Positions 3,630 through 19,591 of a DNA stretch of 64,000 bases are shown here, one piece after another. Source of the DNA: Paenibacillus sp. FSL R5-0766 (GTDB lineage: Bacteria; Bacillota; Bacilli; Paenibacillales; Paenibacillaceae); contig NZ_CP150227.1 of the NCBI RefSeq assembly GCF_037971845.1, positions 5,580,001-5,644,000 of the forward strand, written 5' to 3'. The notes below the pieces were generated by a model. The model saw nothing but the letters and a program-made list of their open reading frames with translations, was not told where the DNA came from and made no database searches. A program made the position numbers and the translations under genes. Each line of letters opens with the position of its first letter. Positions within the stretch are counted from its first letter, which is position 1.

Positions 3630-5357
3630 TTACAGATCGGGGTTCAAGAGCTGAGGTGGGGCGATAATCGGCCAGCCTTCTTCCATCGAATTCAGTTGGT
3701 CCGCAGACACACTGATAATATGCCCAGAATGGACACCCCAACGTTCTGCAGCATAGACCGATACAAATCGTCTCCGCTTGTCTCCACTGATCTGATATCG
3801 AATCTCGGGTGCATCCACTGCGGCAACAATACTTCCTTCTGCCCATCCATTGTGAGAACCATGAACCGCTGTCGTATGCACCTGTTGTGATTCCCTCGGC
3901 CATCCTTGCACGTCCCCCGCTGATATCAGTGCTTCTCCGGCAGGAATGGCGAGCAGATCCGGTTTGGCAACCTGAACAGGAGATATTCCACGCGGTACAG
4001 GGATGTTCAGCTTACGCCGCCGACCGCCAGTTAAAGTATAGACATCTCCTTTGGCATCTGACAGGAACGAACCTTCCGGGTAGAAGTCATAACTGTGTCT
4101 GAACTGTAATGCTGGATCTTGGCTGCCCTGCGTTGAGATTCGCTGACGCGGATCCATTGGGTTGGTGTCACCATCCTCTTGTTGACCGGATGGGGTACCA
4201 GAGGTTTGCTGTCTAGCCAAGCGGCAGGTTTCGGCAACCAGCGCATGGGGATCTCCCCACTTTTGGCTATAAAACTGCTCGTTATCCTTATTCACTACAG
4301 CAAAGTCTTGCTCACCCAAAGCTTTCATACTGACACTTCCGAAGTGGTGGATAAAGGCATCCCCGGCTAACGCAAGCTGGTATCCTGCCAGCTTCACCCG
4401 GATGATCCAGTCATCATCTTCGAAATTGCCTACCGCGTACCCTTCGTCCAGATAACCTACCCGTTCCAGCAGCTCCCGTGAGAACAGCCAGCAGAATCCG
4501 ACCAGGCGATCGGTTATTCGATGTTTGTCTGCATCCGGACGATTATGTGTGGCGGCAAAAGGCCACATCTCTTCTATCTCACGGTACGGAACCTGAATCT
4601 GCTGATCCCCGCCAATATAGTTGGTCACCGGACCCACCACACCAATCTTTGGATCACTGGCAAGACAAGTCATCATGTTATCCAGCCAGCCTGGAGTAAC
4701 GAGCGTATCATTGTTCAGCACGATGATATGTCGTCCTCTCGCCATCATCAGCCCATGATTGACACCTCCGGCAAACCCCCGGTTCTTATCCAGGGCAGCC
4801 ACCCTCACCATGCCGCCTTTGCGGAGCATGGCCTCGGCAGTTCCATCCTTGGAGGCATTATCCACGACAATGATCTCGAAGGGGGCAGGGGTATGCTTTT
4901 CGATACTGGACACACATTGCAGCACATAGTCCCGCTGATTGTACGTGGGGATAATGATGCTAACTCCTTCAAAAACAAGACCAAACGAGCTCTGTCCCTG
5001 GCGGACACCTTCGTTGTATCCTCTGGTATACCCCTGTTTGTAGAGCCTGGCGCCTTTGGCTGTGCGCCTGCTTTTGCCTTTACGTCTGGATTTCCGCATT
5101 GAGCGGCGACCTGCTGCATGCAGGACTGCTATGTCAGGTCGCGAGACATCGTGCTGTGTGGCACGGCGGGCCGCTTTTTTTTCGCTGCTTATGCTGCCAT
5201 TCCTGTTGTTTTCACTGCGGCTGTTGTCACTGTGAGTGCTGATATTTGGAATGATGTTCAGATGACTGTGACCCTTTCGACGGACGACGTTTCGAGCCTT
5301 AACCTTGTTGCTGCGGCTATGACGTTCTTCCCCGCGCTGTTGATCGGGTGTGCTCAT
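3630..5357 (-). CDS. GT2 glycosyltransferase with basic N-tail and C-terminal tandem module
   Basis: A 575-residue protein in three parts. Residues 1 to about 125 are disordered, rich in Arg, Lys and Ser, and end in QGYTRGYNEGVRQG. The middle is a family 2 glycosyltransferase (SIIIPTYNQRDY, VDNASKDGT, the metal-site-like LNNDT, and a C-terminal NFEDDDW). The last 150 or so residues contain two copies of a tyrosine-x-leucine/isoleucine-x-glycine-x-arginine-rich segment (YTLTGGRRRKL and YQISGDKRRRF). The start is the ATG preceded by GGAGGGAGCAAC. It is the last gene of the operon, 66 bp after the GT-D gene. It probably adds sugars to a surface or spore polymer; donor and acceptor are unknown. 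Confidence 0.8.
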   Translation of the reverse strand: MSTPDQQRGEERHSRSNKVKARNVVRRKGHSHLNIIPNISTHSDNSRSENNRNGSISSEKKAARRATQHDVSRPDIAVLHAAGRRSMRKSRRKGKSRRTAKGARLYKQGYTRGYNEGVRQGQSSFGLVFEGVSIIIPTYNQRDYVLQCVSSIEKHTPAPFEIIVVDNASKDGTAEAMLRKGGMVRVAALDKNRGFAGGVNHGLMMARGRHIIVLNNDTLVTPGWLDNMMTCLASDPKIGVVGPVTNYIGGDQQIQVPYREIEEMWPFAATHNRPDADKHRITDRLVGFCWLFSRELLERVGYLDEGYAVGNFEDDDWIIRVKLAGYQLALAGDAFIHHFGSVSMKALGEQDFAVVNKDNEQFYSQKWGDPHALVAETCRLARQQTSGTPSGQQEDGDTNPMDPRQRISTQGSQDPALQFRHSYDFYPEGSFLSDAKGDVYTLTGGRRRKLNIPVPRGISPVQVAKPDLLAIPAGEALISAGDVQGWPRESQQVHTTAVHGSHNGWAEGSIVAAVDAPEIRYQISGDKRRRFVSVYAAERWGVHSGHIISVSADQLNSMEEGWPIIAPPQLLNPDL

Positions 5358-5423
5358 GTTGCTCCCTCCATTTCCACTTGTCCGTGAGGCTAACACGCAC
5401 ATGACCAGCCCCCGGACGGTCCA

Positions 5424-6842
5424 CTAGAGTTGAAGCTCTCCTGTTACCAGTTTGTCAGCCAAATGTCCAAAATCCAGAGCGACCTTGCCGAGTTCACCTG
5501 CAATTCGCCGACACAGAATGACCGCCGGAATACCCGCTGCCACCAAAGCGATATCAAAAGCATGTTCTGCGGTTTGCTGCATCACCCTCGGAATATCCAT
5601 AACTCCCGCCACAGAACCAATGATGCCTGTGACATGAATCCCCCGGTTATGCAGCAGTGCCGCAAGCTCTGGTGCCTGGCTGCCTATGAGCAGAACCCGT
5701 CGTCCTTGCAGCAAGGGCAACACCAAGCCGGACTGATGCAGACTGTAATTGATCGTGGAACTAGTCAACTTCAGCCGGGACCAGTCGATCCCGAAGTGGC
5801 GCAATACCGGGAATAACAGCCCCTGGAATGTCGGCGCCCGCGAGATCGGCACGCCAACCCAGTCGGCGGCCTGTATGGCTTCCGCAAGCATCGCGCGGAT
5901 GTCGGGGGTTGAGCATGGCACCCCTGCATAAGGCAGAAACGGTGCCAGCTCCTGCACTTCCTGGCCTGGCAGCACCGTATCAGCTGCCAGCGTGAGCAGT
6001 TCGCCATCTCCGAGGCGAACGACAGACAAGGGGCGCTGCGCATCCAGCGCCGCCGTGATGTGTCCAGCCATCTCATGAGGGCTGGACAGCCGGGTCAGGC
6101 TGGGCGCGTACTGGCGGAATCCCGCCGCGATCAGATCTGCCGCCGCCACGGCAGGCAGAATGTGATCCGGCGGGATGTGCTGCGCCACCAGCGCCTCCCC
6201 GCCGGCGAATACGCCGTCGCGGTAGCCCTCGGCGTAGCCGCCGGGCACGGCCTCCGCCTGCACTGCGTGCTCCGCGGGCGGAGGCGGCAAGCCCTTCGCG
6301 CTGCCCGCATTCGCGCCGGCAGCGCCTCCCCGCCCTGCGGGGGCGACACCCTTCGGGTGTGTCGCCTGGCGCGGGGCGGGGCCAGCACCGCTGGCAGGCA
6401 TCGCCTGTGGCGTGCTGGCTTGCGGTGCTGGCATGGGCGCACGGCGCATCGCCGTGCGCTGCTTGGCGCGGGCAGCGGCACGCCGGCCCCGCGCTGATGC
6501 CGGCCTGCGCCCAGCAGTGGCCTGGCGCAGGCCGGCTTTGCCCTTGCCGGTGCGGCTAGCTCTTGCCGCTCTACTCGCGCGCGCAGAGCCAGCTTTGCCT
6601 GCTCTGCCAACAACACGGCCTGTGCTGCTCGCTTTCCTTGCACGGACCTTATGCGCTGCGCCTGCAGATGTACCCGCTTTGGTCAGGGTACTACGTTTCC
6701 CTGACTTCACACCTCTGACTCCAGCAGACCCTGTATCTGCTGCTGCCGGAGTGCCACTGCCCATAAATACGGCCGGGTGGATGCCCCGGGGCTTACCCGA
6801 CACGGAGGCCCTAGCGGCCCCGGTGCGTGTCACTACTCTCAC
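5424..6842 (-). CDS. GT-D-fold glycosyltransferase with Ala/Arg-rich N-terminal half
   Basis: The C-terminal half is a GT-D-type glycosyltransferase, with VVRLGDGELLTL near residue 270 as the signature and a conserved WVGVPISRAP. The N-terminal 200 residues or so are low-complexity Ala, Arg, Gly and Pro, encoded by very GC-rich DNA (about 6240-6650), and end in GGYAEGYRDGVFAGG, matching the motif in the GT2 gene downstream. I place the start at a GTG at 6842 because AAAGGAGG precedes it by seven bases. The frame extends to an ATG at 6965, but that start has only a weak site. 472 residues from the GTG. Such proteins often accompany repetitive surface proteins in Paenibacillus; the role here is inferred. 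Confidence 0.75.
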   Translation of the reverse strand: MRVVTRTGAARASVSGKPRGIHPAVFMGSGTPAAADTGSAGVRGVKSGKRSTLTKAGTSAGAAHKVRARKASSTGRVVGRAGKAGSARASRAARASRTGKGKAGLRQATAGRRPASARGRRAAARAKQRTAMRRAPMPAPQASTPQAMPASGAGPAPRQATHPKGVAPAGRGGAAGANAGSAKGLPPPPAEHAVQAEAVPGGYAEGYRDGVFAGGEALVAQHIPPDHILPAVAAADLIAAGFRQYAPSLTRLSSPHEMAGHITAALDAQRPLSVVRLGDGELLTLAADTVLPGQEVQELAPFLPYAGVPCSTPDIRAMLAEAIQAADWVGVPISRAPTFQGLLFPVLRHFGIDWSRLKLTSSTINYSLHQSGLVLPLLQGRRVLLIGSQAPELAALLHNRGIHVTGIIGSVAGVMDIPRVMQQTAEHAFDIALVAAGIPAVILCRRIAGELGKVALDFGHLADKLVTGELQL

Positions 6843-6970
6843 GCCATTCCCTCCTTTGGCATGCACGAGGATTGTCGCTGCGCAAAGCGCCGGAGCATCC
6901 TTCCAGCTCCGGCGCAGAGTGTTCTGCTCCCATGGGGCACCGCACAGCGGCAGCATCAGGCGCATATATT

Positions 6971-7702
6971 TTAAGGCAGTTGTCCTTTCATACGGACAGC
7001 TGCTTCCTGGAGCGAATCAAATGTACCTGCATCACTCCAGTATTTCTTCAAAATGTCGTATTCCAGTCCGCCAGCAGACGCGTAGTGATTATTCACATCC
7101 GTAATTTCAAGTTCTCCGCGCGCAGACGGCGCAATGTTGCGAATCAGGTTAAATACATGATCATCATACATGTATATGCCCGTCACACAATAAGAGGTTT
7201 TCGGCTGGCTTGGCTTCTCCTCGATGTACGAGATTCGCTCTGGATGCTTTGGATCAAAAACAGGCACCCCGTAACGTCGTGCATCATCCACCTCTTTGAG
7301 CAGAACTCGCGCTGTACCAGCAGGTTGCTGCATGTAACGGTCCACATAAGGCTTCAGATCATCGCTGAAGAGATTATCTCCGAGAAGCACTACAAATTTT
7401 TCGCCAGGAAGAATAAAAGTGGTCGCCAGATCCAACGCTTCCGCAATCCCGCCTGCCTTTTCCTGAATGCGATAAGTCAACTTCACGCCATGATCCGCTC
7501 CGCCACCAAGATACTCTGTATATAACCCGGCGGAATGTTTGTTGATCACAATCAATAGTTCATCAATGCCTGCCTGGCGGAGCCTGTCGATGCCATACAT
7601 AATCATCGGATGTTTACCGACTGGAAGCAGATGTTTGTTAATGAGCCGGGTCAACGGATACAGTCTAGTTCCTGTTCCGCCGGCAAGAATTACACCTTTC
7701 AT
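6971..7702 (-). CDS. Sugar-phosphate nucleotidyltransferase (RmlA-like)
   Basis: A 243-residue enzyme with the nucleotidyltransferase signature GGTGTRLYPLT at residues 8-18, then NKHLLPVGKHPMI, the metal-site LLGDNLF and the EEKP substrate-loop motif. It couples a sugar-1-phosphate to an NTP to make an activated sugar; closest in form to glucose-1-phosphate thymidylyltransferase, short class. It starts at an ATGA that overlaps the stop of the upstream glycosyltransferase, so the two are translationally coupled. It presumably supplies donor sugar to the operon's glycosyltransferases. The exact sugar and nucleotide cannot be fixed from sequence alone. Confidence 0.87.
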   Translation of the reverse strand: MKGVILAGGTGTRLYPLTRLINKHLLPVGKHPMIMYGIDRLRQAGIDELLIVINKHSAGLYTEYLGGGADHGVKLTYRIQEKAGGIAEALDLATTFILPGEKFVVLLGDNLFSDDLKPYVDRYMQQPAGTARVLLKEVDDARRYGVPVFDPKHPERISYIEEKPSQPKTSYCVTGIYMYDDHVFNLIRNIAPSARGELEITDVNNHYASAGGLEYDILKKYWSDAGTFDSLQEAAVRMKGQLP

Positions 7703-8472
7703 TCCACGTTCCCTCCTTCATCGGATATGTCCATATATTCAAGCGGATCGACATGCCATTTGTTCATAAAAATCGAACGATTACGCTCAAGCAGCTGTTT
7801 CCACGCTACCGGATCTGTCTTCTGGAAGCTGGCACTTCCCTGATGGTGCACGAGAACATCTCCACATACCAGCAGGCGATATCCCTGCAATCTTGCTCTA
7901 TAACAATAATCGTCATCCTCATAGTGTCCCGGAGAATATGCCTCGTCAAGCAGTCCAACCGATTCCACGACATCTCGTTTCATCAGCATGCACAGACCGA
8001 CGATCCGGCGTACTTCCCTCCACCTTGAAGAATCCGCAACATTATTGGAATTGGCCAACTCCTGAAAATGTTCCATGTCCCGAAACTGCAGTTTAATCTG
8101 CTGGATGCCGCTTGCATAATTCGTAACAGGACCCGTGATTCCAATACTTGCGTCACTGTACAGAGCCGTTCGCAGGTTCTCCAGCCAACGGGGCGTGACC
8201 GTAACATCATTGTTCAACAGCAACAACTCATCCCCGCAAGCTGCACGAAGTCCAGCGTTACACGCTGCCGGAAACCCCCGATTGTCCGGGAACCTTACAA
8301 ATCGAATTCGCTCCAGCGCACAATATTCAGCCGTTCCATCCGTCGAACCGTTATCTACCACGATAATTTCATATGACGCAGGATCGCCCGAGTATTGACG
8401 TATGGCATCGATGCAGGGCCTGATCAGATCCAGCCCATTGTAAGTTGGGATAATCATACTCGTCAGTGTCAT
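7699..8472 (-). CDS. GT2 family glycosyltransferase
   Basis: A compact 257-residue family 2 glycosyltransferase without tails: SMIIPTYNGLDLI at the N-terminus, VVDNGSTDGTAEY, the LLNNDVTVTP metal-binding region and HYEDDDYCYRARLQGY near the C-terminus. It resembles the catalytic core of the 575-residue enzyme at 3630. The ATG at 8472 is preceded by AGGAGG and overlaps the stop of the upstream gene by one base (TAATG). Its own stop overlaps the nucleotidyltransferase start. Tight coupling argues that all three products are needed together. Confidence 0.87.
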   Translation of the reverse strand: MTLTSMIIPTYNGLDLIRPCIDAIRQYSGDPASYEIIVVDNGSTDGTAEYCALERIRFVRFPDNRGFPAACNAGLRAACGDELLLLNNDVTVTPRWLENLRTALYSDASIGITGPVTNYASGIQQIKLQFRDMEHFQELANSNNVADSSRWREVRRIVGLCMLMKRDVVESVGLLDEAYSPGHYEDDDYCYRARLQGYRLLVCGDVLVHHQGSASFQKTDPVAWKQLLERNRSIFMNKWHVDPLEYMDISDEGGNVE

Positions 8473-9584
8473 TAGGCGTTCCTCCTGTAAGCGACTTCTA
8501 CACGGGAGAGTGTATGTGCCTGGGCTGGATTCCAACCTGTACCCAGCAATGTAGCCAGTGCCTCCAGATGATCTCCGATGATCAATTTGGCGACATCATT
8601 CCCACTTCCCGTGTTACCAGGACGCAACCGATTGGAACGAATAACATCCACCTGACTTGGTGCCGAGACGTTCATTCCATGCTGAATAGCTAGACTTTGT
8701 GCCTTAGGTGGAACGGCCAGTGATGCTGGCTTCACGGTCTGAATCATACGACGAGATAATGCATGAGGCACAGCTGTCATGGAATTGGAACCCAGATCTG
8801 CCCTGCCTAATGTTCGGTTCAGATATGCTTTGATCCGGCTTACCTCATCCTGCCCTGCAAACGCAGGAAGCAGAGACGTCAGATTATTCAACGCCACATC
8901 CTGTCCCCGATCAACCGCGAACAGAAAGGGTGCAAGCTGTTCAGCCGAGACGACCATATCTCCATCCACAAAAAGTACCGTCTCCGCATCCGTCATCTTG
9001 GCTCCAAGTGCCCGGCCGACATCATGTCCTGCCCGATCAGGTTCATAGATTACGGTAAGTCCCGGCTGCCTTAGTACCTGCTTCAAACTGTCATCTGTCG
9101 TTCCATTCAGTACCACAATAATATCCGTCAGAGGCAACCGCTTTAGTTGCAATAACACCTGCCCCAGTGTGTGTTCCTCATTACAGGCACAGACAATGGC
9201 AGCAGCCGAATGACGAAGAGGGAGTGGCACGATCTGGAAGGAATGTCCCGAGGCCTGAGCATAACCCTGCATAAATGCCTTACCTGCTTTCAGGGCTAGC
9301 TCGAAGTTGCTTAGCTCCGCAACGTTCACCGCGTGTGCATTCCATACGAGACGTGCATGTTTTTCTGATACTGTGTTGTTTGCCTTTGCCTCGCTTCCTG
9401 CAACTTGCCCCGCTTTCCACATCAAGTGCAGATCTACTTGGCCAGACTTTGCTCGGCTTCTTCTTGTTTTTTGAATATCTACATGTTTCTTTTTCCTAAA
9501 ACGCTTGTTCATTACTGTTCTTCCTGCTGTCGTTTGTCTATTTGTTGTCCGCCTGCGGCGGACAACCCCTGAACGTCCCTTCAT
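8472..9584 (-). CDS. GT2-like glycosyltransferase with basic N-terminal tail
   Basis: A 370-residue protein. Residues 1 to about 60 are strongly basic (RRRRTTNR, KRFRKKKH), followed by a helix-prone stretch and a GT2 domain with AAIVCACNEE, VVLNGTTDDS, HDVGRALGAK and the DGD metal motif in LFVDGDMVVS. The C-terminal region parallels that of the upstream gene at 9626, so the two look like paralogues. The start is the ATG after GGAGGTGAGGAA. It is the second gene of the operon. Function is inferred as protein or polymer glycosylation; acceptor unknown. Confidence 0.8.
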   Translation of the reverse strand: MKGRSGVVRRRRTTNRQTTAGRTVMNKRFRKKKHVDIQKTRRSRAKSGQVDLHLMWKAGQVAGSEAKANNTVSEKHARLVWNAHAVNVAELSNFELALKAGKAFMQGYAQASGHSFQIVPLPLRHSAAAIVCACNEEHTLGQVLLQLKRLPLTDIIVVLNGTTDDSLKQVLRQPGLTVIYEPDRAGHDVGRALGAKMTDAETVLFVDGDMVVSAEQLAPFLFAVDRGQDVALNNLTSLLPAFAGQDEVSRIKAYLNRTLGRADLGSNSMTAVPHALSRRMIQTVKPASLAVPPKAQSLAIQHGMNVSAPSQVDVIRSNRLRPGNTGSGNDVAKLIIGDHLEALATLLGTGWNPAQAHTLSRVEVAYRRNA

Positions 9585-9625
9585 TTCCTCACCTCCAGCA
9601 TGCTGCATCATCCGATGCGACATGC

Positions 9626-10582
9626 TTACCTCGCCAGGTTGCGAACACGTTTCAGATCGGTATAACCTCCGCGGGGACCGAGCGTATCCGTAATCCACTT
9701 GATCGCTGCCATATGATCATTCAGTACCACCTGACTTAGCGGATCAGGTCCGCTTCGCTTCTTGATTCGTACTGCATTCATTCTACCCACAGGTACGTGA
9801 TGAACAGCGCGTACCCGAAGTCCGCCGATCACAGCCTTGGCTTGTGCGAGTGGCGGAACTTCCAGTGAGGATATGCCCATGACCTCAAGTCCTTTTCGGC
9901 TTATTGCATGTGGAATAGCTGTCATGGATGCCCCCCGGAGATCGGATCTTGCGAGTATGCTGTTCAACATGTGTTTGGCCTCCACTACCGGATGAACGGG
10001 ATGATGAGTGACCGGCCCATGGTAGTCGTTAAGCGCCACATCCGTTCCCTTCAGCACAGCCTTCACGTAAGGCGCAAGGTGCTCTGCGGGAATTGCGATA
10101 TCTGCATCAGTAAATAACAACACCTGACCATAGGCAGCTGCCGCGCCTACTTTTCGTCCTCCATCATGCCCCAGCGCTTCTGCATACGTGAGCACTCGTG
10201 CTCCAGCCCGTTTGGCTGCGTTAGCCGTACCGTCTGTTGAACCATTCACAACGACAAGCACTTCAGCATCACGGCATATCCGCCGCGCTTCACGGACAAC
10301 TGCACCAATCCTTTTCTCCTCATTCATAGCAGGAATAATGACCGAGAGCATCGGTCGCTGAGAAACATCCCTGTGTGAAGGAGCATCACTCATGCCATTT
10401 TCCGCTCCATTCTCTACTCCATCCTTAGCCTGTGACATCAGCTGTTTGGATGGAATAACGAACGTATAGGCCTTTGTACCCTTTTTGTGTCCAGACTTCC
10501 ATTTTCGTTTCTTCAGTACTGTTTTTCTTCGTGTCACATTGGATCGGGTTGCATAACGTGCTGTGGCACGGGTTTTGCGCAA
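9626..10582 (-). CDS. GT2-like glycosyltransferase, first gene of the operon
   Basis: A 318-residue family 2 glycosyltransferase: SVIIPAMNEEKRIG, VVVNGSTDGTANAA, GHDGGRKVGAAA and the metal motif TDADIAIP. The first 50 residues or so are basic (RRKTVLKKRKWKSG), as in its paralogue at 8472. A TTG at 10582 is the best start because GGGAGGTG stands just upstream; the ATG 18 bases earlier overlaps that binding site. The gene heads the minus-strand operon running to 3630. No clear sigma-A promoter was found in the 600 bp before it. Confidence 0.78.
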   Translation of the reverse strand: MRKTRATARYATRSNVTRRKTVLKKRKWKSGHKKGTKAYTFVIPSKQLMSQAKDGVENGAENGMSDAPSHRDVSQRPMLSVIIPAMNEEKRIGAVVREARRICRDAEVLVVVNGSTDGTANAAKRAGARVLTYAEALGHDGGRKVGAAAAYGQVLLFTDADIAIPAEHLAPYVKAVLKGTDVALNDYHGPVTHHPVHPVVEAKHMLNSILARSDLRGASMTAIPHAISRKGLEVMGISSLEVPPLAQAKAVIGGLRVRAVHHVPVGRMNAVRIKKRSGPDPLSQVVLNDHMAAIKWITDTLGPRGGYTDLKRVRNLAR

Positions 10583-12767
<2,185 letters not shown>

Positions 12768-12937: not shown

Positions 12938-15900
12938 CTATCCTTGCGAAGGTCCCGCAGCAATCCATGACAACAATCCGTACGTATGCTTGCAATCTGC
13001 TGTACGTGACACTTCAAGTACCGCTTCATCCTCACTCTGCGAGAGCAGGGAAATCTGGAATCCCCGATCATTGCTCATGCCCACAATCACATAATGTTCT
13101 GAAGCAAATGATTCTTCAAAAACAACAGTTACCTCTGTGCATACTTCACTCTCTGGCAGTACAAAAGCTTCCATCCCGAATTGTTGTACAACCGGTTGTT
13201 TGCTTACGCTGCGAACGGGCTGGAAGGCCAGATGTTTGGCCTGAACTGCCCCCGATTGCAACTGGCTGCTGCCCACAGCATCATCACACAGATGCTCCTG
13301 TGTAATCGATTGTTCACTTAACATAAACTCCGTAGTTCCAACAATCTCCTGTGACCGTTCAAGCTGTGGTTGCTGAGCCTGATCTGTTTGGGATATCAGC
13401 TCTTGTTGTTGCTCCAGACCAGCACTCGGCAATGCCTCGACAATGACCTGCTGTGATTGCTGTACACCTTCATTTTGTGGTTGAAGCAATCCCTCTTGTC
13501 TTTTGATAGCTGCCAGCTGCTCCAGCGTTTCTCCACTGAACTGACGAATCGCATTCCAGATCTCTACACTTAAATGGGCAGGACCAACAATTCCCGCATT
13601 CAAGTGATTGGAGGTAATGCTTTGGTCACCCAGTTTGCTGCCAGTTACACTGCCATCAGCTAGTTTGGCGCTCGTTACGGATCCATTCTGCAGGTGAATT
13701 CCGCTTACCAATTCCTCTTCCAGATGGACTGTGCGAATACTGCGTTCCTGAATATGATCAGCAAGAATGGTTCCATCCTGAATATGACGAGATTGCACAC
13801 TTTTGTCTGCTATGTGAATAGCCGATACCGCACCTTCAAGTAATTTATTACCGTTCACACTGCCGTCAGCCATTTTGGCACTTGTTATGGAACCATTGTG
13901 CAGGTGAATCGCACTTACCGATTCCGCTTTGAGGTGGGAGATCCCAATGCTTCGCTCTTGAATATGGTCAGCATGTATGGCTCTCTCTTGGATATGACGG
14001 GATTGCACACTTCCATTGGCAATATGGACATCCGACACCGCATCTTCAAGCAGTTTGCTGCTGCTCACACTGCCATCGGCCAGTTTGGCACTTGTTACGG
14101 ACCCATTTTGCAGATGAACCGCACTTATTGCTTCCTCCTCCAGATGGGACGTACCAATGCTATGTTCCTGAATATGATCAGCAAGGATCGCTCCTGTCTG
14201 GATATGGCGACTTTGCACACTTTCCGATGCGATATGGCTCCCCAATACAGCATCTTCGAGCAATTTGCTGCCGCTAATGCTACCATCAGCCAATTTGGCA
14301 CTTGTGACGGACCCATTTTGCAGATGAACCGCACTTACTGATTCCTCTTCCAGATGGGCTGTGCCGATACTTCGCTCCTGAATATGACCAGCATGAATAG
14401 CTCCTGCCTGAATATGCCCGGATTGCACACTTTCCGATGCGATATGAATCCCGGATACCGTACCTTCAAGTAACTTGCTGCCAGTTATACTGCCATCCGC
14501 CAGTTTGGCACTCGTTACAGATCCATTTTGCAAATGAATGGCACTTACCGACTCCTCTTCCAAATGTGCTGTGCCGATGCTCCGCTCTTGAATATGATCA
14601 GCAAGGATTGTTCCCTCTTGAATATGACGGGATTGCACACTATCGTCTGCAATGTGGATATCTGATACTGCTCCTTCAAGCAACTTGCTGCCGGTTACAC
14701 TGCCATCGGCCAACTTGGTACTTGTTACAGATCCATTTTGCAGATGAATGGCACTTACTGCTTCCTGTTCCAAGTGAAGCATGCCGATGCTGTGCTCCTG
14801 AATGTGATCAGCAAGGATTACTCCTGCCTGGATATGGCGGGATTGCACACTTTCAGAGGCGATATGGATTCCTGACACCGCATCTTCGATCAACTTACTG
14901 CCGGTTACACTGCCGTCGGCCAGTTTGGCACTGATGACAGACCCATTTTGCAGGTGAATCGCACTTACTGCTTCCTCCTCCAGATGGGTTGTGCCGATGC
15001 TCCGCTCCTGAATATGGTCAGCATGAATAGCCCCTGCCTGAATGTGCCCGGGTTGCACACTTTCGGACGCAATATGAATCCCCGATACGGTTCCTTCAAG
15101 CAATTTGCTGCCGTTTATACTGCCATCCGCCAGTTTGGCACTTGTTACAGATCCATTTTGCAAATGAACCGAACTTACAGCCTCCTCATCCAGATGAACT
15201 GAGCCAATACTGCACTCTTGAATATGATCAGCAAGGATTGCGCCTTCTTGGATATGACGGGTTTGCACACTTTCATTGGCAATGTGAGTAGCCGATACGG
15301 TTCCTGCAGCTAATTTGCTGCCATCCACACTACCCGTTGCTAATTTGGAGCGTGTTACAGATTCATCCTGCAAAATAATCGTACTTACCGCTTCTTCTTC
15401 CAGATGAGATGTTCCGATGCTGCGTTCATGGATATGATGAGGAAGAATCTCACCATCTTGAATATGACGGGAATGCACAGCTCCTTGCTGCAGGTGAACA
15501 GCACTTGTTGACTCTGCCTGAAGATGCAAACCACTGATCAAACCTGGCTGAAGGTGAGCTGCTGTAATGGATAAAGGTGCCAGATGGTCTGTTTCGACAG
15601 ATCCGGGTGCCAAGTGATGCGACGTAACCACCTGTTCAGCAATATGCTCCTCATGAATAATGTCTGGCTTCAGATGCTGTGAGCCCACTACTTGAGTCCC
15701 CAAATGATCAGACTTCACGCTGCCTTCAGCCAAATGGACGGATTGTACAACGGATGGCTGCAAGTGCTCGCTACCTACAGCAGCCTGTTGCAGTTCTGTC
15801 CCGGATACCGAGTCTGCTGTCAAATGGTCCGCACTTATGGAGCCATGCCGAAGTTTGTTGCCGGTAATACTGCCATCAGCGAATAACTCGGGCGAGCGTA

Positions 15901-18085
15901 TTTCTTCCGACAAATGTTCCAGTGAAACGGCATGCTGCTTCAGGTGATATCCGCGAATGGTTCCTGCTGGAATATGTTTGGCGTTAATACTCTCTGCCAT
16001 AATCTTGGAAGAAGTCACGCTGCCGTCTGCCAGTTTAGCTGACGTAACAGCAAAATCCGCCAGTTTATCTGTGGCAACACTTTCTGGTGAGAGCTTGGGG
16101 GAGGTAACCGCATGATCTGTTAGATGAGGCGGAAAAATGGACCCGCCAGCCAGCTGGGCTGAAGTTACACTATCAATAGCCAATTTGTCTGTTGTGACCG
16201 CGGACCGTGCAATCGCATCCGTTTCAACACTGCCCGGCTGAAGATGAGGTACACCTACGGCATGTTCTGTCAGATGTTCTGATTTCACTGCATAAGGTCT
16301 TAGGGCCTCGGAACCCACGCTGCCTGGAGCCAGATGTGTCCCTGTGACTCCACCACTCGCAAGATGCGAGGATATAACACTTCCCGGGGCAAGCGCTCTG
16401 CTACTTACTGATGCCGTTCCAAGCTTTTCTGTTGTCACACTTCCATCCGCGAGTTTAACGTCTGTAACGGCAGCATCCTGCAATTCATACGTACCCACGG
16501 CCGACTCTGCAAGATGCCGCTCACACACCACGTCGTCTGCAAGAGCGTCTCCGGACACACTTCCGGCAGATAGATGAGCTGCCTCGATGCTTCCACTTGC
16601 AATGTGAATAGAGTGAATTGCGGAATTGTCCACATGTACCGGTGTAATTCCCCGATTCGCAATGTGTTCCGCACGAATGGACCCTTTGGCAAGATGTTTA
16701 CCCTGTACGGCTTCATCCGCGATTTTGGAAGAAATGACGCTCTGATCAGAGATCTTGGATGCCGTAATGGACTGCTCCAGCAATTTGGCTGTTCCCACAG
16801 ACTGGTCTGCCAGTTTGCTGCTGGTTACTGCACCTTCCGTCAAATGCTCACTGCCCACTTCTCCATTGCCAATCTGCTCCTTGCCAACGGAATGAGCTCG
16901 AATCTGACTTGATCCGATTGAACCGTCCAGGAGATGTCTTCCAGTTAGTGAACCCTCAGCTAAATGTCTTGTTTGTATGGATCCATCCTCTATCTGGTCA
17001 CTTCCAATACTGCCACTTAATAGTTGTGGACGACCGACAGCCCCTTCTGCCAGATGTGTCTGTTTAACAGCACCTGCCTGAATGTGGTGAGATTCGATGG
17101 ATAGTTCTTCGATTTTGCTGCCTGTGACAGCAGCTTCCCGAATTTTGGACGTAGTCACTGCATCGTCAGCAAGTTTGGAGGTATTCACAGCTCCCCCCGT
17201 GAGATGTCTTGTATCCACCCCGCTAATCGCGATCTTGTCTCCGGTCACGGCATGATTCTTAATTAATTCTTCCGTGACCAGCATGCGGCTGAGATGTCTT
17301 GTGCCAATGGAACCGTCGGCAATTTTGGCCGAATCGATGACCTGGTTGCCAAGCTTCTGAGAAGTAATACTGCCATCTCTGATTTTCTCACCGGCAATAG
17401 AAGCATTTCGTATTTTATGACCAGACACAGAACCGTCAATCAGGTGCTCCTCAGATACAGACGCTTCCGCAAGTTTCGCCGAAACAATGGCCCCGTCGGC
17501 AATGTGAATGCTGGTCACCGCATAATCCTGCAATGCCTCACTGCCGACCGCATCCGGTTTCAGCTTGGAAGCATCTACAGAGAAAGGAGCCAACTTGCTC
17601 TCCGTAACAGCAAATTCACTCAAGTCGTCCGTGTAGATGTAATGTCCGGTATGACCCGGCATCTGGTTTTGGTTCAGGATCTGCAGCCGGTCCTTGTTTG
17701 TCACCTCCTGCTTTTTGATGTCCTGCTCTTCTTCCAGAGCAAGCGGAGCCAAGCTGCTAACCTGAATCTGCTTTTCCGAGCTATCTTGTGTCTCGACTTC
17801 CTTGCGATCAGACTCTACGGGTTCCGGCATGATTTTGGCTTCAATCTCTAGCTCTTCCAGCTCGTTTGTTGAAGCAGGTAGCTCCGTTGATTCGAATAGG
17901 AATTCTTCCGACTCCTGAACAGCTCTCGAATCCCTTTTATTCGTATTCAAGCGTTCTTCCCTATTCACAGTGAAACCTGAGTTCATCTTGTCTGCCCGGC
18001 GATCAGTCAGTTCCAATTCCTTAAATTTCGGGCTCACATGCCGCAGTTTCGGCGTTGGAACCTTCTTTTTGCCATTTTTACTCAT
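12938..18085 (-). CDS. Giant decapeptide-repeat protein with WIAG tail
   Basis: A 1715-residue protein. Residues 1-155 are charged and acidic without a signal peptide. From about 157 to 1505 there are roughly 134 ten-residue units of the type GSVTSAKLAD: small residue, Ser/Ala, Val/Ile, three variable, Lys/His, Leu/Ile, two variable. Aliphatic residues recur every five positions. A C-terminal 200-residue region follows, with a Gln/Glu-rich part and a compact end carrying WIAAG seven residues before the stop, which I link to the WIAG-tail proteins of Paenibacillus. Similar repeats occur in phage tail fibres and bacterial adhesins. AAGGAG precedes the ATG. Divergent from yheC/D; likely a spore-surface fibre or coat protein (inference). 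Confidence 0.85.
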   Translation of the reverse strand: MSKNGKKKVPTPKLRHVSPKFKELELTDRRADKMNSGFTVNREERLNTNKRDSRAVQESEEFLFESTELPASTNELEELEIEAKIMPEPVESDRKEVETQDSSEKQIQVSSLAPLALEEEQDIKKQEVTNKDRLQILNQNQMPGHTGHYIYTDDLSEFAVTESKLAPFSVDASKLKPDAVGSEALQDYAVTSIHIADGAIVSAKLAEASVSEEHLIDGSVSGHKIRNASIAGEKIRDGSITSQKLGNQVIDSAKIADGSIGTRHLSRMLVTEELIKNHAVTGDKIAISGVDTRHLTGGAVNTSKLADDAVTTSKIREAAVTGSKIEELSIESHHIQAGAVKQTHLAEGAVGRPQLLSGSIGSDQIEDGSIQTRHLAEGSLTGRHLLDGSIGSSQIRAHSVGKEQIGNGEVGSEHLTEGAVTSSKLADQSVGTAKLLEQSITASKISDQSVISSKIADEAVQGKHLAKGSIRAEHIANRGITPVHVDNSAIHSIHIASGSIEAAHLSAGSVSGDALADDVVCERHLAESAVGTYELQDAAVTDVKLADGSVTTEKLGTASVSSRALAPGSVISSHLASGGVTGTHLAPGSVGSEALRPYAVKSEHLTEHAVGVPHLQPGSVETDAIARSAVTTDKLAIDSVTSAQLAGGSIFPPHLTDHAVTSPKLSPESVATDKLADFAVTSAKLADGSVTSSKIMAESINAKHIPAGTIRGYHLKQHAVSLEHLSEEIRSPELFADGSITGNKLRHGSISADHLTADSVSGTELQQAAVGSEHLQPSVVQSVHLAEGSVKSDHLGTQVVGSQHLKPDIIHEEHIAEQVVTSHHLAPGSVETDHLAPLSITAAHLQPGLISGLHLQAESTSAVHLQQGAVHSRHIQDGEILPHHIHERSIGTSHLEEEAVSTIILQDESVTRSKLATGSVDGSKLAAGTVSATHIANESVQTRHIQEGAILADHIQECSIGSVHLDEEAVSSVHLQNGSVTSAKLADGSINGSKLLEGTVSGIHIASESVQPGHIQAGAIHADHIQERSIGTTHLEEEAVSAIHLQNGSVISAKLADGSVTGSKLIEDAVSGIHIASESVQSRHIQAGVILADHIQEHSIGMLHLEQEAVSAIHLQNGSVTSTKLADGSVTGSKLLEGAVSDIHIADDSVQSRHIQEGTILADHIQERSIGTAHLEEESVSAIHLQNGSVTSAKLADGSITGSKLLEGTVSGIHIASESVQSGHIQAGAIHAGHIQERSIGTAHLEEESVSAVHLQNGSVTSAKLADGSISGSKLLEDAVLGSHIASESVQSRHIQTGAILADHIQEHSIGTSHLEEEAISAVHLQNGSVTSAKLADGSVSSSKLLEDAVSDVHIANGSVQSRHIQERAIHADHIQERSIGISHLKAESVSAIHLHNGSITSAKMADGSVNGNKLLEGAVSAIHIADKSVQSRHIQDGTILADHIQERSIRTVHLEEELVSGIHLQNGSVTSAKLADGSVTGSKLGDQSITSNHLNAGIVGPAHLSVEIWNAIRQFSGETLEQLAAIKRQEGLLQPQNEGVQQSQQVIVEALPSAGLEQQQELISQTDQAQQPQLERSQEIVGTTEFMLSEQSITQEHLCDDAVGSSQLQSGAVQAKHLAFQPVRSVSKQPVVQQFGMEAFVLPESEVCTEVTVVFEESFASEHYVIVGMSNDRGFQISLLSQSEDEAVLEVSRTADCKHTYGLLSWIAAGPSQG
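13570..17615 (-). repeat. Decapeptide repeat tract inside the WIAG-tail gene
   Basis: About 134 tandem 30-bp codon units without interruption or frameshift. The promoter-proximal two thirds (about 15.5-17.6 kb) are diverged units in no fixed order. The distal third is organised in higher-order 210-bp units, listed separately. Confidence 0.85.
13580..15500 (-). repeat. 210-bp tandem higher-order repeat (nine copies)
   Basis: A landmark sequence (ATCCATTCTGCAG and close variants) recurs at 13679, 13889, 14099, 14309, 14519, 14729, 14939, 15149 and 15359, exactly 210 bp apart. Each unit encodes seven decapeptides (70 residues), ordered GSVTSAKLAD, GSVTGSKLLE, GAVSGIHIAS, ESVQSRHIQA, GAILADHIQE, RSIGTSHLEE, EAVSAIHLQN with small changes. 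The exact spacing and high similarity point to recent tandem duplication. Confidence 0.9.
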
Positions 18086-18460
18086 GCAGCTTGCTCCTTC
18101 CTCTAACGTTCATCTCCGGCATCATATGCTCCCATATGGGCATCTGCCACTTCATTTATGACTTTTGCGGATTCCAGAGCACGAATGTACAGGCGTCAAG
18201 ACAGGAAGGTTCGATGATCTTTGTGGAAATAGGCGTGTCAGGGCAGCAGAGGAAAGGCGGCTGTCCACGCCCCCGTCCCAGTCATGTCATAGGATATTAT
18301 GTCTAGGTCATGTCTGAAAACGCGCTGAGCAAGCACTAGTGCATGGCTATGCATATATACACCGGTCTGCGTTATCGCGATGTCTGAGCCATGCGGTGAC
18401 AGGCCGGCATTCCATGAATGGACGATCCATGGTCGCGATAACATCGAAGGAGGAACGGTC
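18086..18460. other. Divergent promoter region, WIAG-tail gene and yheC/D
   Basis: A 375-bp spacer between two genes read outward. A CATAGGATA at 18288-18296 matches the sigma-K -10 pattern CATAnnnTA toward yheC/D, but no -35 of the usual spacing was found. Nothing coding is seen. Sporulation control is expected from the gene families rather than demonstrated. Confidence 0.4.
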
Positions 18461-19591
18461 ATGCTCCAAGAAACGATCGGCATTATGTTCGATTCACGCA
18501 TGTACCGGGGGATACCGGCCGGAAGGACCGGTCAGGAATCACTCGCGAATTATGAACAGGCAGCGGCCAGTTATGGATTAACTCCCTGCTTTTTGAGGCT
18601 GGAAGATATCGATTCGGATCAAAAAACATGTCTTGCCTATGTAAAAAAAGAAGGCAGATATGTTCGCGAGCGCATGCCACTGCCCTCCGTCATTCATAAC
18701 CGCTCACTCCAGCTTCGCCGGACGGAACAGCATCAGATTACCAAGCTGATGTTGCAGGGTATCCAGGTATTCAACGTTCGCAACCGGTACCGTAAAGATC
18801 ACATTCATGACATGCTTCAGCAGGACCCCGCCTTGAGAGAACACCTGCCCCATGCAGTTAAAGCTACGCCAGAATCTCTGGCCTATATGATGGAACAACA
18901 TGATGACCTCGTCATCAAACCATGCAGCGGTAGCATCGGTCATGGGATTATGCGAGTCTTTGAGCGAGATGGACAGTGGAAACTAACCTGTGAGACGAAG
19001 GCTGCACGCAAAGGGTGGGCTACCTTCCGATTGAGCAAAGGACAGCTTCCTTCCGCCACCCTAAGGCGGATATTTCGCCATGCCTACCTCATTGAAGAGC
19101 GTATCCCACTGGTACGTTATGAGGGCAGGCCGGTAGATTTGCGGGTATCTGTACAACGTGGCGGCGATGGTCTTTGGGGAATAACAGGCATGTTTGCCAA
19201 AGCGGCTCCTGCCCATACGTTTGTCAGCAATATCGCCCAGGGAGGTAAAGTCATGAAGCTCGCGGAGGCCCTTGGATTAGGGGAATCTGGCTTCGACCTG
19301 GCTCGACTGGAATACAGAATCGGACTCGTTGCACTTCGAATTGCCCAGAACCTGGCTGCCAGTCTGCCACATCTGGCTGATCTGGGTCTTGATCTCGGGA
19401 TAACGCGCAGCGGCCAGATCTACTTTATTGAATGCAATGGACGGGATCAGCGTTACGGTTTTCGCAAGGCGGGAATGTCGGAACACTGGAAGGCAACGTA
19501 CAGCAAACCGATGGCTTATGGGCGTCTGCTGCTGGAACAGAATTCGAGAATTCCGAGACAACCGCAGACATACGATAGGAGACTATATTGA
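18461..19591 (+). CDS. YheC/YheD-family ATP-grasp protein (spore coat-associated)
   Basis: A 376-residue protein of the YheC/YheD family, whose Bacillus members associate with the endospore coat. The C-terminal two thirds form an ATP-grasp fold: VIKPCSGSIGHGI corresponds to the nucleotide-binding loop, and FIECNGRDQR near the C-terminus to the metal-binding strand. ATP-grasp enzymes form amide or thioester bonds using ATP, so it may ligate or modify a coat component; the substrate is unknown. The ATG at 18461 follows AAGGAGG with seven-base spacing; upstream in-frame ATGs lack sites. It lies divergent to the WIAG-tail gene and 85 bp ahead of psd. Confidence 0.85.
   Translation: MLQETIGIMFDSRMYRGIPAGRTGQESLANYEQAAASYGLTPCFLRLEDIDSDQKTCLAYVKKEGRYVRERMPLPSVIHNRSLQLRRTEQHQITKLMLQGIQVFNVRNRYRKDHIHDMLQQDPALREHLPHAVKATPESLAYMMEQHDDLVIKPCSGSIGHGIMRVFERDGQWKLTCETKAARKGWATFRLSKGQLPSATLRRIFRHAYLIEERIPLVRYEGRPVDLRVSVQRGGDGLWGITGMFAKAAPAHTFVSNIAQGGKVMKLAEALGLGESGFDLARLEYRIGLVALRIAQNLAASLPHLADLGLDLGITRSGQIYFIECNGRDQRYGFRKAGMSEHWKATYSKPMAYGRLLLEQNSRIPRQPQTYDRRLY

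Follow-up and report, generated by a model that had tools for sequence, protein, structure and literature searches.

A giant decapeptide-repeat WIAG-tail protein of Paenibacillus, a probable sporulation-linked fiber of the spore surface

The window analyzed here, a 64,000-nucleotide stretch of the Paenibacillus sp. FSL R5-0766 genome (contig NZ_CP150227.1, positions 5,580,001–5,644,000), contains a very long open reading frame (ORF) on the minus strand, at positions 12938–18085, that encodes a decapeptide-repeat protein of 1715 amino acids (aa). This ORF, which we refer to as the fiber gene, begins with an ATG codon and has a good to strong ribosome-binding site, ggaaggag, the end of which is 8 bases upstream of the start codon. 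The nearest named records belong to Paenibacillus xylanexedens and related species, placing the carrier in the xylanexedens/amylolyticus group. The protein comprises an N-terminal region, a linker, a long decapeptide tract, and a C-terminal WIAG-tail domain (Table 1); judged by hydropathy only, no signal peptide or membrane helix is evident. A YheC/D-type gene lies divergently upstream, and a protease gene and an operon of sugar genes lie downstream.

The decapeptide tract spans residues 150–1505, and we segmented it into 136 units in one unbroken phase, with a single irregular unit around residue 730. An earlier note on this DNA had described an unbroken tract of about 134 decapeptides with an aliphatic residue every five positions, and both the tract and its periodicity are borne out here. 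Indeed, V, I, L, M, or F occupies 270 of the 272 five-residue core positions. Autocorrelation of aliphatic residues is ~0.6 at all multiples of five residues and negative at other lags up to 30; in 200 shuffled controls, its absolute value peaked at 0.098. The consensus unit is G-S-V-T-S-x-H/K-L-A-D. The two pentads of each unit alternate strictly, with K, H, or Q standing immediately before the core 125 times in second pentads and never in first pentads. In the C-terminal part of the tract there is also a higher-order repeat of 70 residues, i.e., seven decapeptides: unit identity is 0.72–0.74 at lags of 7, 14, and 21 units, and 0.25–0.32 at other lags up to 20. This period is visible in the DNA as a 210-bp tandem repeat, the sole array reported in the gene. 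Separately, position 7 of the decapeptide, a feature absent from the earlier note, is His in 79 and Lys in 41 of the 136 units (13565–17644). Over 50 proteins of the family (defined below), the proportions are 54% and 26%, respectively. Such a histidine ladder could serve in metal binding or pH sensing.

To describe the family, we fetched 40 loci, which yielded 39 family ORFs, and kept 31 of these plus the window protein (tracts of at least 30 pentads). For unit statistics, the window protein was combined with 49 of the 78 named proteins, giving 50 proteins and 6667 units; those left out were cut by a contig end, were 600 aa or shorter, or had no recognizable cap. Most relatives examined have an architecture similar to that of the window protein: a Lys/Arg-rich start with a Glu-Leu/Met motif leads into a linker that varies, and the tract and then the tail follow. 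The N-terminal Glu, followed by L or M, is invariant in 17 of 17 chosen rows, with an NELDWLD-like sequence in several relatives. Several of the more distant relatives carry the tail domain at a position other than the extreme C-terminus. Tract length varies widely: across the 31 fetched relatives, the longest run is 48–468 pentads, and it reaches 503 in the named contigs; the 50 proteins have about 40–230 decapeptides each. In these 50, 13,224 of 13,334 core positions of the longest in-phase run are aliphatic, a figure that the choice of run favors. A single phase runs throughout 46 of the 49 named proteins, with changes in three (L091, L092, and L098); of the 39 fetched ORFs, 29 have one phase, three have phase changes (L027, L032, and L038), and seven have no run. 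The L032 tract consists of seven successive runs, with the phase changing between runs. All 24 proteins of the close group (the window and 23 of L064–L090) have an even pentad count, meaning that length changes by whole decapeptides.

While the tract is variable in length, its first 18 decapeptides form a constant base in most members examined. Their mean identity is 0.49 in register, compared with 0.25–0.30 when sequences are shifted by 1–5 units; beyond the first 18 units, identity is at background, 0.28. This comparison used 29 sequences from many genera, including the window, chosen for diversity and a recognizable cap. It covers part of the family, taking 12 of the 21 family ORFs of one set and leaving aside L156, L157, L158, L159, L160, L161, and L167 (different or unrecognized cap), L149, and the second copy in L165. 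Four relatives of ~200 aa (L028, L034, L040, and L041) lack a tract and keep the NEL(V/G/D)W N-terminus and the tail; they are a natural no-shaft version. In the Paenibacillus polymyxa-like loci L062 and L063, compared with L051–L057, a ~280-aa tractless WIAG protein lies at the site of the M4 protease and YheC/D genes, joined in L063 by GT2 genes, and a decapeptide WIAG protein of 1900–2570 aa is encoded elsewhere. Brevibacillus massiliensis (L137:4959-10993) encodes two decapeptide proteins in tandem (1194 and 740 aa) that resemble each other in their N-termini and caps. We rejected the Brevibacillus spore protein CpbA as a family member; its glutathione S-transferase fusion is described in the accessible part of the source as 54 kDa, far too small (PMC5335551).

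The protein ends in WIAAGPSQG, which the earlier note likened to the end of WIAG-tail proteins. The tail is indeed a WIAG-tail domain, scoring 92.5 bits against the NCBIfam model NF012201, which has a curated cut-off of 33. Its predicted structure, with ten-residue block means of 84–98 across the domain, has the beta-sandwich fold of the Gp53-like_C/H_lectin superfamily. Among the 50 structural matches listed by VIA-align, the top 18 are fiber, tailspike, or lectin chains, including LKA1 gp49 (9.9), R1 pyocin (9.8), discoidins (9.1–9.6), Helix pomatia agglutinin (8.9–9.1), and AP22 gp53 (8.1), and the next match scores 6.4; no TNF/C1q-like fold is among these 50, the listed fold being H-lectin-like. 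Viral predicted structures agree with the fiber/lectin likeness. The H-type lectins Helix pomatia agglutinin and discoidin I/II have 12–16% identity with the window tail over the aligned part. At E ≤ 10, 11 of 21 family tails picked for diversity match Gp53-like_C (best 5.7e-5) and one matches H_lectin (0.0095); the tail of the window protein itself has no match to either model at that threshold. A 60-row tail profile had no match among PDB sequences, and a search of the tail against a large protein database gave 82 candidates, none at E ≤ 0.001. The structural relatives of the tail, other than cyanophage gp28, are presumably trimeric. For gp28, the accessible part of its description documents the trimer state (PMC10575957). 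Based on the model, we propose that the tail is an H-type-lectin-like beta-sandwich that may form a trimeric knob.

The shaft, like the tail, has relatives among tail fibers, as the earlier note had stated for the decapeptides. All 40 repeat rows match PHROG tail-fiber families at E ≤ 0.001 (best 1.9e-57), 21 of 40 match Phage_Tail_Tip at E ≤ 0.01 (the window's own match falls below the model cut-off), and tblastn found similar decapeptides in 85 phage records, all with <60% identity. Because repeats inflate the PHROG and Phage_Tail_Tip scores, we take these matches to indicate a shared type of repeat, not a close common origin. The Pfam Decapeptide repeat region, PF25296, scores 27.1 bits, below its gathering cut-off of 45, and 4 of 40 repeat rows match it at E ≤ 0.01. 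No solved structure of a long decapeptide shaft was found in PDB, where the closest entries by profile include cyanophage gp28, 9eg4 orf16, and DotG. The match to 9eg4 chain H (orf16; 5.5e-6) covers an aligned stretch of 46 residues, the decapeptides lying at about residues 92–137 of the chain, and this structure may show the local decapeptide fold. The decapeptide region of DotG/IcmE from Legionella (7muc; 1.8e-7), which we take to be a secretion-system protein, also has ten-residue repeats, but its first core residue is aromatic in the aligned stretch. For gp28, the accessible part of the source describes the distal fiber as unresolved (PMC10575957). Two other candidates were set aside: phi29 head-fiber gp8.5, the stem of which has no decapeptide when its translated sequence is inspected by eye and is described, in the accessible parts of the sources, as a helix-turn-helix supercoil (PMC6542822, PMC7602432); and lambda gpJ, which a PF09327 match had suggested as a model for how the shaft folds, a point that the accessible part of PMC11101478 does not settle.

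WIAG-tail proteins are confined to spore formers in the genomes we sampled. We searched with a WIAG-tail profile in 398 genomes of Bacilli, the class being set because the window is from Paenibacillus, and in a second, phylum-wide sample of 398. The domain is present in 109 of the Bacilli genomes, in 6 of the phylum-wide genomes, all from the window's own family, in 52 of 59 genomes of a set of relatives (the window's own included), and in none of 14 control genomes. As a marker of sporulation we took SpoIVA, which 269 of the 398 Bacilli genomes have, including all 109 WIAG carriers (Fisher p 3.7e-23, with genomes that are not independent of one another). The protein is nevertheless optional for sporulation, since 160 of the 269 SpoIVA-positive Bacilli genomes are without it, as are seven genomes of the relatives set, which also have SpoIVA. 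When its own genome was searched, the decapeptide profile matched nothing but the fiber gene, and the N-terminal profile likewise matched it alone at E ≤ 1.

The gene neighborhood is also conserved in part. We considered 75 of the 78 named loci, dropping three with <5 kb downstream. In a majority of these (44 of 75), a homologue of the window GT2 gene at 9626 lies downstream on the same strand, and any additional GT2, RmlA-like, and GT-D genes present there are arranged in one and the same order in all 44 operon loci. Of these loci, 26 come from the window's close group, meaning that there are fewer independent cases; the other 18 come from more distant Paenibacillus, with GT2 identities of ~40–61%. 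In L024, a genome of another family, sugar-operon genes adjoin the fiber gene in a different order. An M4 metalloprotease gene is inserted between the fiber gene and the operon in most of the close group; the named operon loci that are more distant showed no such gene. Upstream, a YheC/D-type gene is divergent in 36 of 58 loci. The intergenic region has a CATAnnnTA box (18288–18296, plus strand), of the type expected for mother-cell sigma factors, facing the YheC/D gene, and a partial box, CATATGATG (18120–18128, minus strand), facing the fiber gene. Both are present in all 15 aligned sequences, i.e., the window and 14 of its close group.

Table 1. Features of the fiber gene and its neighbors, in window coordinates.
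Feature	Position	Strand	Basis or remark
Decapeptide-repeat WIAG-tail protein, whole gene, 1715 aa	12938..18085	-	
N-terminus, residues 1-40: basic stretch followed by a conserved E-[LM] motif (KELEL); proposed anchor	17966..18085	-	17-row alignment
Variable acidic linker, residues 41-147	17645..17965	-	Translation
Constant base, residues 148-327: 18 decapeptides from cap HYIYTDDL onward	17105..17644	-	In-register identity
Variable decapeptide shaft, residues 328-1507, 118 units	13565..17104	-	
210-bp (70-residue, 7-decapeptide) tandem super-repeat, 8.8 copies, inside shaft	13634..15479	-	
Gln/Glu-rich linker, residues 1508-1590	13316..13564	-	
About three more decapeptides ahead of tail, residues 1591-1625	13211..13315	-	
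WIAG-tail domain, residues 1626-1715: predicted H-type-lectin-like beta-sandwich, proposed trimeric knob	12941..13210	-	
Divergent promoter region	18086..18379	.	
YheC/D-type ATP-grasp gene, divergent neighbor	18380..19591	+	PF14398 2.7e-57; named endospore coat-associated
M4 thermolysin-type protease	11187-12767	opposite to fiber gene	Between fiber gene and sugar operon
GT2 glycosyltransferase, first gene of associated sugar operon	9626..10600	-	
GT2 glycosyltransferase	8472..9698	-	Long N-terminal extension overlaps neighbor
GT2 glycosyltransferase	7699..8535	-	
RmlA-like sugar nucleotidyltransferase	6971..7702	-	TIGR01207 3e-64, below its cut-off; PF00483
GT-D-fold glycosyltransferase	5424..6965	-	PF22882 8.5e-77
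GT2 glycosyltransferase	3630..5402	-	

What kind of structure the tract forms bears on every reading of the protein. Aliphatic residues every five positions are common to pentapeptide-repeat proteins such as HetL and designed Rfr proteins, and the earlier note had pointed to their solenoids; the tract would then be a single-chain right-handed beta-solenoid, serving as a rod or a DNA mimic. There are weak profile matches of this sort, to designed pentapeptide proteins in PDB (3.8e-5), HetL (NCBIfam; 67.5 bits), and Pentapeptide_4 (Pfam; 21.3), but the latter two lie far below their cut-offs of 260 and 38, respectively. Moreover, pentapeptide repeats nearly always have a small residue (A, S, T, C, or V) at position i−2 of the core, a rule that the family breaks: over the 6667 units, such residues make up 0.094 at position 1 and 0.346 at position 6, and D, E, K, R, H, Q, or N stand there in 42% and 50%, respectively. 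The strict alternation of two unlike pentads also argues against a solenoid. The same is true of an AlphaFold2 model of the tract (a monomer from a gapless alignment of 40 sequences), in which, at low confidence, 22 of 24 decapeptides counted from the printed string have an in-register helical turn of three to five residues rather than beta coils. We consider a solenoid improbable. No PDB chain matched the repeat model by Foldseek or VIA. The low confidence of this model (mean predicted local distance difference test score 62, mostly <50 near the tract start) could instead mean that the tract is largely a flexible or disordered spacer, with only the N-terminal anchor and the tail at work, inside the coat. 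The retention of both ends by the repeatless relatives, and the phase changes in 3 of 49 named and 3 of 39 fetched relatives, fit such a spacer. Nonetheless, confident disorder, which the earlier note had named as an outcome telling against a fiber or solenoid, was not predicted, the tract model being weak. The single phase in the window and most named relatives, the aliphatic core, even allowing for the choice of the longest run, and the positional identity of the first 18 decapeptides in the 29 chosen sequences are all unexpected for a disordered spacer, which we regard as unlikely.

Shaft and tip both resemble those of phage and pyocin tail fibers (R1 pyocin, 6cxb/6cl5; AP22 gp53, 4mtm; cyanophage), with which the protein shares decapeptide shaft families and a C-terminal beta-sandwich tip, and it might accordingly be a component not of the cell but of a phage, prophage, or tailocin particle. 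In keeping with this, the accessible part of a report on the algal (haptophyte) Chrysochromulina parva virus lists BQ1_177 as a tail fiber protein with a WIAG-tail domain (PMC12085832). Unlike phage and pyocin fibers, however, the fiber gene is chromosomal in a spore former, none of its 10 neighbors matches a PHROG annotated as structural at 1e-5, and the 50 family proteins have about 40–230 decapeptides. Within the relatives set, 44 of the 52 WIAG-positive genomes have a single copy and 8 have two copies. In phages, the only relatives of the tail were a pair of records for a single phage, at E 9, and none were found in plasmids or IMG/VR. A phage particle therefore seems very improbable.

In overall plan, the protein resembles BclA, which also has sugar genes nearby. 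BclA/F-BclA proteins of the Bacillus cereus group and the window protein may share an N-terminal anchor, a long stalk of variable length bearing Ser/Thr, and a C-terminal beta tip. The parts themselves differ, the stalk being decapeptide and the tip H-lectin-like in the window protein, whereas the stalk of BclA/F-BclA is collagen GXY; in the accessible part of a 2025 preprint on spore appendages, the collagen stalk of BclA carries sugars and its tip is TNF/C1q-like (PMC11952670). The same part of that preprint records no tip fibril on the Paenibacillus fibers studied (PMC11952670).

Taken together, the lack of an evident export signal, the tie to sporulators, the coat-type neighbor, the frequent sugar operon, and the anchor, base, shaft, and knob build are most simply explained by a spore-surface fiber with a tip that binds something outside. 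The earlier note had suggested the spore surface as a possible location, and the link to spores, through SpoIVA and the YheC/D gene, is strongly suggested, not proven. We infer that the protein is probably a sporulation-linked fiber of the spore surface, following the BclA plan with tail-fiber-type modules, probably trimeric and possibly glycosylated, with a role in adhesion. With no evident secretion signal or membrane segment, it would be made in the mother-cell cytoplasm and then placed on the forespore. There, the basic N-terminus and the constant base may attach it to the coat or exosporium and bring the chains into register. The shaft would consist of three chains running together, and its length would change as whole decapeptides are gained or lost; the knob in which the chains end may trimerize and display a ligand-binding surface. 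If the fiber is glycosylated, its Ser/Thr-bearing shaft would probably be decorated by the products of the GT2/RmlA/GT-D operon. More broadly, Bacilli spore formers may have made tail-fiber-type modules into a glycosylated, length-variable trimeric spore fiber with its own 18-decapeptide assembly base, a counterpart of BclA with a separate origin, found in about a quarter of the sampled genomes; we put the chance of this wider proposal at slightly below even.

The window protein is itself a member of the WIAG-tail family, for which the predicted fold, the constant base, and the operon are new here. In the literature we searched, which leaves most subscription journals outside its coverage, the term WIAG-tail occurs only in the haptophyte-virus genome, and nothing relevant was found on decapeptide repeats together with tail fibers, spores, or Paenibacillus. 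A domain present in 109 of 398 sampled Bacilli genomes is named, in that literature, only for an algal virus. If the reading as a spore-surface fiber is correct, these widespread giant proteins would gain a concrete role, as the hairs by which spores adhere in bacteria other than the Bacillus cereus group.
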